In this document: in pieces, positions 68 through 1,330 of the stretch
Numbering within the stretch: position 1 is the stretch's first letter
How the letters are laid out: each line of letters begins with the position of its first letter
From: Dehalococcoidia bacterium
GTDB lineage: Bacteria > Chloroflexota > Dehalococcoidia > Lucifugimonadales > Lucifugimonadaceae
NCBI GenBank assembly: GCA_029936155.1
Contig: JAPYUK010000007.1
Span: 11,289-49,696, forward strand
Direction: 5' to 3'
DNA length: 38,408 nucleotides
Position numbers and translations under genes: made by a program
Notes under the pieces: model-generated
The model's input: only the letters and a program-made list of their open reading frames with translations
What the model was told of the DNA's origin: nothing
Database searches by the model: none

Positions 68-1330
68 TTAACCACCATCCAGAATCATCTTGACTCCCCG
101 CGTCAGATTCTCAATAACCGGAAGCTGGAAATTCGAATTGGGATTTCGTGATGAGTCAACCTCGTTGGCGATCACGACGATCACTGTGCCATCTTTTGAG
201 CCAGCGTCGGGCCAGTAAACGAACTGCGCCGAGAATGGGTATATGAAGCCGAACTGGCCGATAACTCTTTGATCATTTTCGGTCCACGTAAATACACCCG
301 CCCCCGACTCAATTCGAGACGACCCAGAAGCCTGCGCTGGATGATCGGCAACCCGGAGTATCTCTTCTCGGACACCTTCGAAATCATCCAACTGAAAGAT
401 CACCTGAACCAGCTTGATCACATCTGCCGGGGTTGAGACGAGAGCACCCGAAGCCCACTCGGCGCTAACAACCGAGTGCGTTGGAACTTGCGGTACGTGG
501 CCGTCGACAACGGTTGGCGCGTCCGACGACAGTCCGGCGTACTCGTAACCAAGTGGCGTGCTGCCGGAGTCGAGCGTAGTTCCGGCGAGGTAGGTATTTG
601 TCATTCCGAGCGGATCAAAGAAACGCTTTTGAAATTCTCCATGGAGCGAATTGCCAGTGACCATTTCGATGATCCGACCGAGGATCAGAAAATTCGTTTT
701 CGAATAACCGTACTGTGACCCGGGATCGAAGAACGAACCCTCGGCTGCCGCAACCGCAATCACCTCATCGTGATCTTGCGTAACCGCTGGTTCCTGCTCA
801 TACAAAACATCGAGGAACTCCGCGGTATAGAACACGGGAACACCGCTGGTGTGCTCTAGCAGGTTTCTGATCGTTATATTTTTGGAATTTTCGATTTCCG
901 GGAACCATTTTTCGATGTCGGCTTCGAGATTCAGTAGTTCCTCTAGATCGAGTTGGATTACAGTGGCTGCAACGAGTACGTGGGTAATATCGCCCACAAA
1001 CATCGGCTTGTCGGGCCACACCGCCACGTCCGGTGATCGGTTGGGGTCAATTGAGCGTTTACTCAAGCCGCTGGCGAGATCGTATTGACCATATGTTGGC
1101 GAGTAGACCGACATTGTCGCACCCGTTATCCGCTCATCTTCTCGCCATTCGTTGAATGCATTCTGCAGGTTAATGCGAGTCGCATTGACCTCTTCGGTCG
1201 TTGCTCGTTTGGCGGCATCGTCCGACGAGCACCCGGAAAGTGTGATGACGAACAGGATCCACATCGGCAGGACTAGCAATTGTGATGCATTGGTCATTGT
1301 CTGGATATGGAAACTGAATCGGCGATCCAT
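68..1330 (-). CDS. Beta-lactamase-fold lipoprotein with lost catalytic residues
   Basis: A 420-residue protein of the serine beta-lactamase/class C penicillin-binding fold (Pfam Beta-lactamase type). The N-terminus has a hydrophobic stretch and a lipobox LSGC with Cys34, so it is probably a lipoprotein outside the cytoplasmic membrane. The fold is recognisable from LLEHTSG (residues 157-163) and ILGRIIEMVTG (216-226). The first catalytic motif, normally S-x-x-K, reads D114-I-T-H117, so both the nucleophile and the general base are gone. The second motif, normally Y-x-N, reads Y209-S-K211, and the third (H/K-x-G) reads Q359-F-G361. It is therefore likely to bind rather than hydrolyse peptides or esters. 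It lies 46 nt after hemB on the same strand and could be cotranscribed. Met12 (position 1297) is an alternative start that leaves a more typical signal peptide. Fold assignment is solid; function is unknown. Confidence 0.8.
   Translation of the reverse strand: MDRRFSFHIQTMTNASQLLVLPMWILFVITLSGCSSDDAAKRATTEEVNATRINLQNAFNEWREDERITGATMSVYSPTYGQYDLASGLSKRSIDPNRSPDVAVWPDKPMFVGDITHVLVAATVIQLDLEELLNLEADIEKWFPEIENSKNITIRNLLEHTSGVPVFYTAEFLDVLYEQEPAVTQDHDEVIAVAAAEGSFFDPGSQYGYSKTNFLILGRIIEMVTGNSLHGEFQKRFFDPLGMTNTYLAGTTLDSGSTPLGYEYAGLSSDAPTVVDGHVPQVPTHSVVSAEWASGALVSTPADVIKLVQVIFQLDDFEGVREEILRVADHPAQASGSSRIESGAGVFTWTENDQRVIGQFGFIYPFSAQFVYWPDAGSKDGTVIVVIANEVDSSRNPNSNFQLPVIENLTRGVKMILDGG

Follow-up and report, generated by a model that had tools for sequence, protein, structure and literature searches.

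What does a lipoprotein with the serine beta-lactamase fold do once every catalytic motif of that fold has been exchanged? The question is raised by one gene in a stretch of 38,408 nucleotides (the window) from a Dehalococcoidia bacterium placed within the marine SAR202 genus Ca. Lucifugimonas, whose assembly comprises 2.07 Mb in 84 contigs. The gene lies on the minus strand at positions 68–1330 and is an intact frame with an ATG start and a product of 420 amino acids. PF00144, the S12 family, is the sole Pfam-A family in that product (E=5.9e-32, 111.6 bits against a cut-off of 27), and none of its 12 NCBIfam matches lies at or above its own cut-off. With the class C beta-lactamase model NF033085 the protein scores 20.2 bits, under the cut-off of 415, and the catalytic residues are absent.

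A search of PDB sequences with phmmer gave 48 distinct matches to E=0.01, the top one being alkaline D-peptidase 4y7p (E=1.7e-22). The AlphaFold2 model, built from nine sequences, is of moderate quality (pLDDT 65.5, pTM 0.71), with several loops, including 201–208 and 363–367, under pLDDT 50. It nevertheless matches S12 structures with Z of 26.6–29.7 over 302–334 residues among the best 50 matches. D-amino acid amidase 2dns comes first (Z 29.7, 334 residues, rmsd 3.1), and the fold is likewise that of LACTB (7v1y, Z 28.2), several AmpC entries (Z about 27) and the Streptomyces R61 DD-peptidase (3pte, Z 26.8). By profile match and fold, the window protein is a member of the PF00144/S12 family. 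From a hydrophobic N-terminus and a lipobox recognized by inspection, L-S-G-C34 (signal peptide and lipobox at 1229–1330, minus strand), with C34 present in 9/9 intact copies, we infer a bacterial lipoprotein with a lipid anchor.

All three catalytic motifs are replaced. At the first one, D114-I-T-H117 (980–991, minus strand; codons of D114 at 989–991 and of H117 at 980–982) stands in place of S-x-x-K. The second, Y-x-N, has become Y209-S-K211 (698–706, minus strand; K211 at 698–700), and Q359-F-G361 (248–256, minus strand) occupies the position of H-x-G. Between the first two, the scaffold motif LLEHTSG (residues 157–163; 842–862, minus strand) is kept. In four PDB alignments, D-x-x-H and Y-x-K pair locally, without gaps, with the SxxK helix and the Y-x-N loop. 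The HMMER alignments to 4y7p and the R61 enzyme cover motifs 1 and 2 and stop before the third, the correspondence of which comes from a 60-row alignment covering all three motifs.

The third motif of the R61 DD-peptidase is H-x-G. Compared with that enzyme, alignable at motifs 1 and 2 (1cef), the window protein has the nucleophile, the base and the Asn replaced, and Q-F-G for H-x-G. The alkaline D-peptidase and other D-stereospecific S12 hydrolases (4y7p, 9s7k, 3wwx) share the HTSG motif and the context of the SxxK helix with it; 4y7p and 9s7k, however, have S-x-x-K and Y-x-N where the window protein has D-x-x-H and Y-x-K. LACTB differs in the same way, as it is described in passages of PMC2266909 as keeping its catalytic residues.

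Ten of the 19 genomes of the genus carry the gene, and nine, in assemblies that are 79–96% complete across the genus, have no match. An intact copy is present in the complete genome (CP046147) of Candidatus Lucifugimonas marina JH1073, presented in passages of PMC10444878 as a cultured SAR202 isolate. The eight intact orthologues other than the window's are 53–66% identical to it. D114, H117, Y209, K211, Q359 and G361 are identical across all nine intact copies, as are the whole of YGYSKTN and, within LLEHTSG, L158, H160, T161, S162 and G163. The catalytic set of S12 enzymes is thus absent from the clade: Ser and Lys are missing, Tyr is kept but its Asn partner is Lys, and the His or Lys of the third motif is Gln. 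The preliminary description had read the gene from its letters as a lipoprotein of this fold with all three motifs replaced, a conserved scaffold motif and an intact frame; PF00144, the 60-row alignment and the nine orthologues bear it out, down to the residues named and their positions.

Relatives outside the clade look different. We tried 52 such S12 loci, which gave 51 alignable proteins and one fragment. The first motif is S..K in 51/51. Column 211 holds N in 37, S in 10 and D in 4, next to Y209 in 50/51; at the third motif, H occurs in 49 of the 50 with a letter and G in 51/51. Within the genus itself, 50 other S12 loci were tried and all 48 readable ones have S and K; these 48, part of 86 other matches, count one gene twice and include three also found among the 51 relatives. 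Their second and third motifs are more variable, and since several lack the motif-3 His, loss of that residue alone is not special. Some genus proteins of 726–782 amino acids (L155, L156, L157, L158 and L159) have two S12 domains, the second being divergent, with S-A-S-K in L155 and L159, whose full sequences were read.

Replacement of Ser together with Lys was observed in one clade only. In a quick-search tree computed without the motif columns, the nine copies form a group supported by SH-aLRT 100; its stem measures 1.14 changes per column, and it lacks any close sister. An order-wide sample of 250 genomes gave four weak matches outside the carriers at E up to 1e-15 (3e-17 to 8e-16). Matches were found in 17/393 genomes of a class sample and 92/400 of a phylum sample, from which 43 new loci of best matches were read; profile searches for the variant covered Chloroflexota. 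Scanning genome contigs for YGYSKTN[FY] and [VI]GQFGF[IL]Y retrieved 10 of 101 stretches, at 9 loci, all within the genus, while a single-sequence scan of the same contigs for the variant outside the genus gave 0/18 and a scan of viral contigs for YGYSKTN and YPFSAQF 0/68; such motif scans would miss a D-x-x-H protein with different flanking motifs.

The replaced residues are fixed under purifying selection. A tree-wide codon model yields omega 0.095 (log-likelihood −8511.6), and fixing omega at 1 on the same tree lowers the log-likelihood to −9290.7, a cost of 779 units. Synonymous sites are saturated in 30/36 pairs (pS 0.75 or more), and pN ranges from 0.11 to 0.30 among the 36; in the pair with the least divergence, dS is 0.62 and dN 0.12, a ratio of 0.20. 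Codons of D114, H117, Y209, K211, E291 and Q359 drift synonymously among the nine, and the amino acid stays fixed. These results support a functional protein rather than decay, as had been proposed, and motif loss here goes together with purifying selection, the pattern looked for in a pseudoenzyme.

Conservation is concentrated around the former active site. Of the columns no more than three residues from one of the three motifs, 18/28 are invariant, versus 110/348 of the others (one-sided Fisher p=0.0007), and for a wider set of blocks, picked after inspection of the alignment, the figures are 42/48 versus 86/328. A comparable but weaker tendency is seen in the S-x-x-K relatives (the top letter has a mean share of 0.58 in the motif windows versus 0.44 elsewhere), as expected for an active-site region, so that pocket conservation alone is no proof of a new role. 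Among the residues that the clade keeps invariant and that differ from those of relatives are the charged or polar D114, H117, K211, H278, E291 and Q359, and the aromatic F347, W349, F360, F362, Y364, F370 and W373. One of them belongs to the invariant pair E291-W292 (455–460, minus strand), in a column where at most a tenth of relatives have E.

We favor, at an even balance of confidence, a membrane-anchored binding protein of the S12 fold whose pocket, remade and under selection, would have lost acyl-serine chemistry. Passages of PMC10444878 describe the genus as monoderm; the S12-fold domain would face outward, fixed by its lipid anchor to the outside of the cell's one membrane. Catalysis through an acyl-serine would have given way to a fixed new set of residues, with Asp at the position of the nucleophile, His at that of the base, the family Tyr kept, Lys at that of the Asn, Gln-Phe-Gly at the third motif, and a number of invariant aromatics. 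The proposed aromatic-walled Asp-His-Lys-Tyr pocket, presumably the functional site, may bind, without turning it over, a small organic compound that comes from seawater or the cell surface, as a receptor, scavenger or delivery protein. Lack of catalysis, which the preliminary description had also suggested, is no more than plausible.

Pseudoenzymes are a known kind of protein and S12 is a known fold; MEROPS lists S12 'non-peptidase homologues'. A conserved fold with a lost catalytic motif is typical of pseudoenzymes in general and is what we see here, inactivity being putative in this case; a review of pseudoenzymes (PMC10211241) notes that catalytic residues are able to migrate. Passages of PMC6478378 describe a class A-like protein that keeps S-x-x-K and SDN. 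Among the open-licence papers covered, we found none on the present protein, nor any report of all three motifs replaced and fixed in a lineage reported to be without peptidoglycan.

Peptidoglycan had been put forward as a possible ligand. In the R61 enzyme, the H-x-G strand helps to bind the substrate carboxylate. The transpeptidase family PF00905 was found in 0/19 genomes of the genus, with 10/14 controls positive, and passages of PMC10444878 report that SAR202 genomes encode no peptidoglycan biosynthesis. A receptor for D-Ala-D-Ala is unlikely because H-x-G is changed as well, PF00905 was not found and SAR202 is reported to lack peptidoglycan synthesis; the same two observations on the host tell against a peptidoglycan receptor more broadly, and we consider that role unlikely.

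Fixed ionizable D, H, K and Y are a pattern that a new enzyme would show too. The nucleophile could then be Asp114, by way of an aspartyl intermediate (alkyl or acyl); alternatively Lys211, together with His117 and Tyr209, could serve as base or nucleophile. The Lys of the helix would in effect have relocated to the Y-x-K loop, with Tyr kept. In the alpha/beta-hydrolase fold, a Ser-to-Asp switch separates esterases from haloalkane dehalogenases. The invariance of all four residues in 9/9 copies despite codon drift fits such chemistry, and SAR202 is proposed in passages of PMC10444878 to oxidize a broad spectrum of organic compounds. On the other hand, nothing of the catabolic operon type is seen around the gene, and no S12 member with comparable chemistry was found among the open-licence papers covered; both activity and substrate would be putative. 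We regard a new enzyme on the S12 scaffold as a possible but secondary explanation. Its more specific form, an Asp/His/Lys/Tyr centre (e.g. with an aspartyl-ester intermediate, by analogy with that Ser-to-Asp switch) working at the SAR202 surface on marine dissolved organic matter, is somewhat less likely.

In 10/10 carriers the gene follows cysG-N, hemC, cobA/hemD and hemB, at one syntenic site beyond hemB. An aquaporin gene lies directly upstream, between hemB and the gene, in 8/10 carriers, the exceptions being the window genome and G009. On the other side come a convergent signal-peptidase-like gene and then sodN, in the gene's own direction. These three names rest on the JH1073 copies alone, which match PF00230 (aquaporin), PF10502 (signal peptidase) and TIGR02753 (sodN); the PF10502 protein is over the cut-off for signal peptidase I and under that for the NiSOD maturation protease.

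Eight non-carriers in which hemB was located share these flanks but lack the gene. G001 and G005 have an intact aquaporin gene adjoining the signal-peptidase gene; in G002, G007, G014 and G016, hemB adjoins it. In G008 (L061:6212-8440) and G011 (L063:3637-5865), an ORF of 742 amino acids occupies the slot, with the signal-peptidase gene on one side and the broken remnant of an aquaporin gene on the other; the G008 ORF is a catalase-peroxidase (KatG, NF011635), and that of G011 is given the same name because its start and length are alike. The slot of the eight non-carrier loci yielded no remnant of the gene itself; the best tblastn matches there (E=0.004 in L065 and 0.011 in L064) fall within a different ORF. 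A tree built from four flanking proteins (18 rows) and rooted on the non-carriers G002 and G016 requires three changes for presence and absence. Such a count would fit a single gain once G002/G016 had split off, with two losses, and by itself it cannot separate gain from loss.

Since non-carriers keep the same flanks without the gene, the hem genes are neighbors of a variable slot and imply no tetrapyrrole role. The place behind the tetrapyrrole genes, previously called unexplained, is accounted for by this slot, which lies between hemB and the signal-peptidase gene. A tetrapyrrole role found no support, non-carriers having the signal-peptidase gene, aquaporin or KatG next to hemB.

As to the neighborhood itself, a two-unit siroheme decarboxylase-like protein (L020:2879-3982; PF17805 and PF22451, assigned on the L020 copy) adjoins the siroheme/heme genes in 8/10 carrier loci, which suggests a heme route by way of siroheme; clustering gave no orthologue of it in G010 or in the flank of the window itself. 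A promoter scan of the first 1600 bases of the window gave no sites. Just before the start codon, at 1331–1350, a short stretch with the consensus CTGTATGGTTTCGGCAGC is partly common to most orthologues and is possibly a start-proximal promoter or leader element.

The aquaporin bears on a structural alternative, in which a salt-bridged Asp-Lys-His cluster would close the pocket and the protein would scaffold the envelope through protein-protein contact, e.g. with an S-layer or the aquaporin. Opposite charges (D114, K211 and H117) do arrive together, and beside its frequency in carriers the aquaporin is intact in only 2/8 examined non-carriers (G001 and G005), with remnants in two more. The association is nevertheless phylogenetically non-independent and fails in the window genome and G009, and conserved positions cluster in the former active-site blocks. 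We take the link between gene and aquaporin as a lead only, and a scaffolding role as unlikely.

An ordinary serine hydrolase, with its nucleophile elsewhere or its motifs misaligned, is very unlikely. Several serines are invariant in the nine copies, including S74, S162, S210, S294, S342, S367 and S393. No S-x-x-K at any other position is common to the nine, however, and the alignment of the SxxK helix is unambiguous. Sister genomes do not restore the motif either: all ten genus copies have D-x-x-H at this place.

The tenth copy (G018; L024:9431-10615), identical in D-x-x-H and the other motifs, contains an in-frame TAG and TAA and appears as a decaying copy in one species. With nine of 19 genomes lacking a match, parts of the genus can do without the gene. 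That it is generally a decaying or recently dead hydrolase gene is nonetheless scarcely credible, as decay is ruled out for the other nine by their intact frames and omega of 0.095, alongside mostly saturated synonymous sites and more conserved motif windows, and applies to G018 only.

Owing to beta-lactams, the S12/SxxK fold is among the most studied enzyme scaffolds. That one lineage has exchanged all three of its motifs and since kept the new residues fixed shows that the S12 pocket can be remade for another task, and this in bacteria reported to be without peptidoglycan synthesis. With an intact copy in the cultured JH1073, the choice between binding and new chemistry is directly testable.
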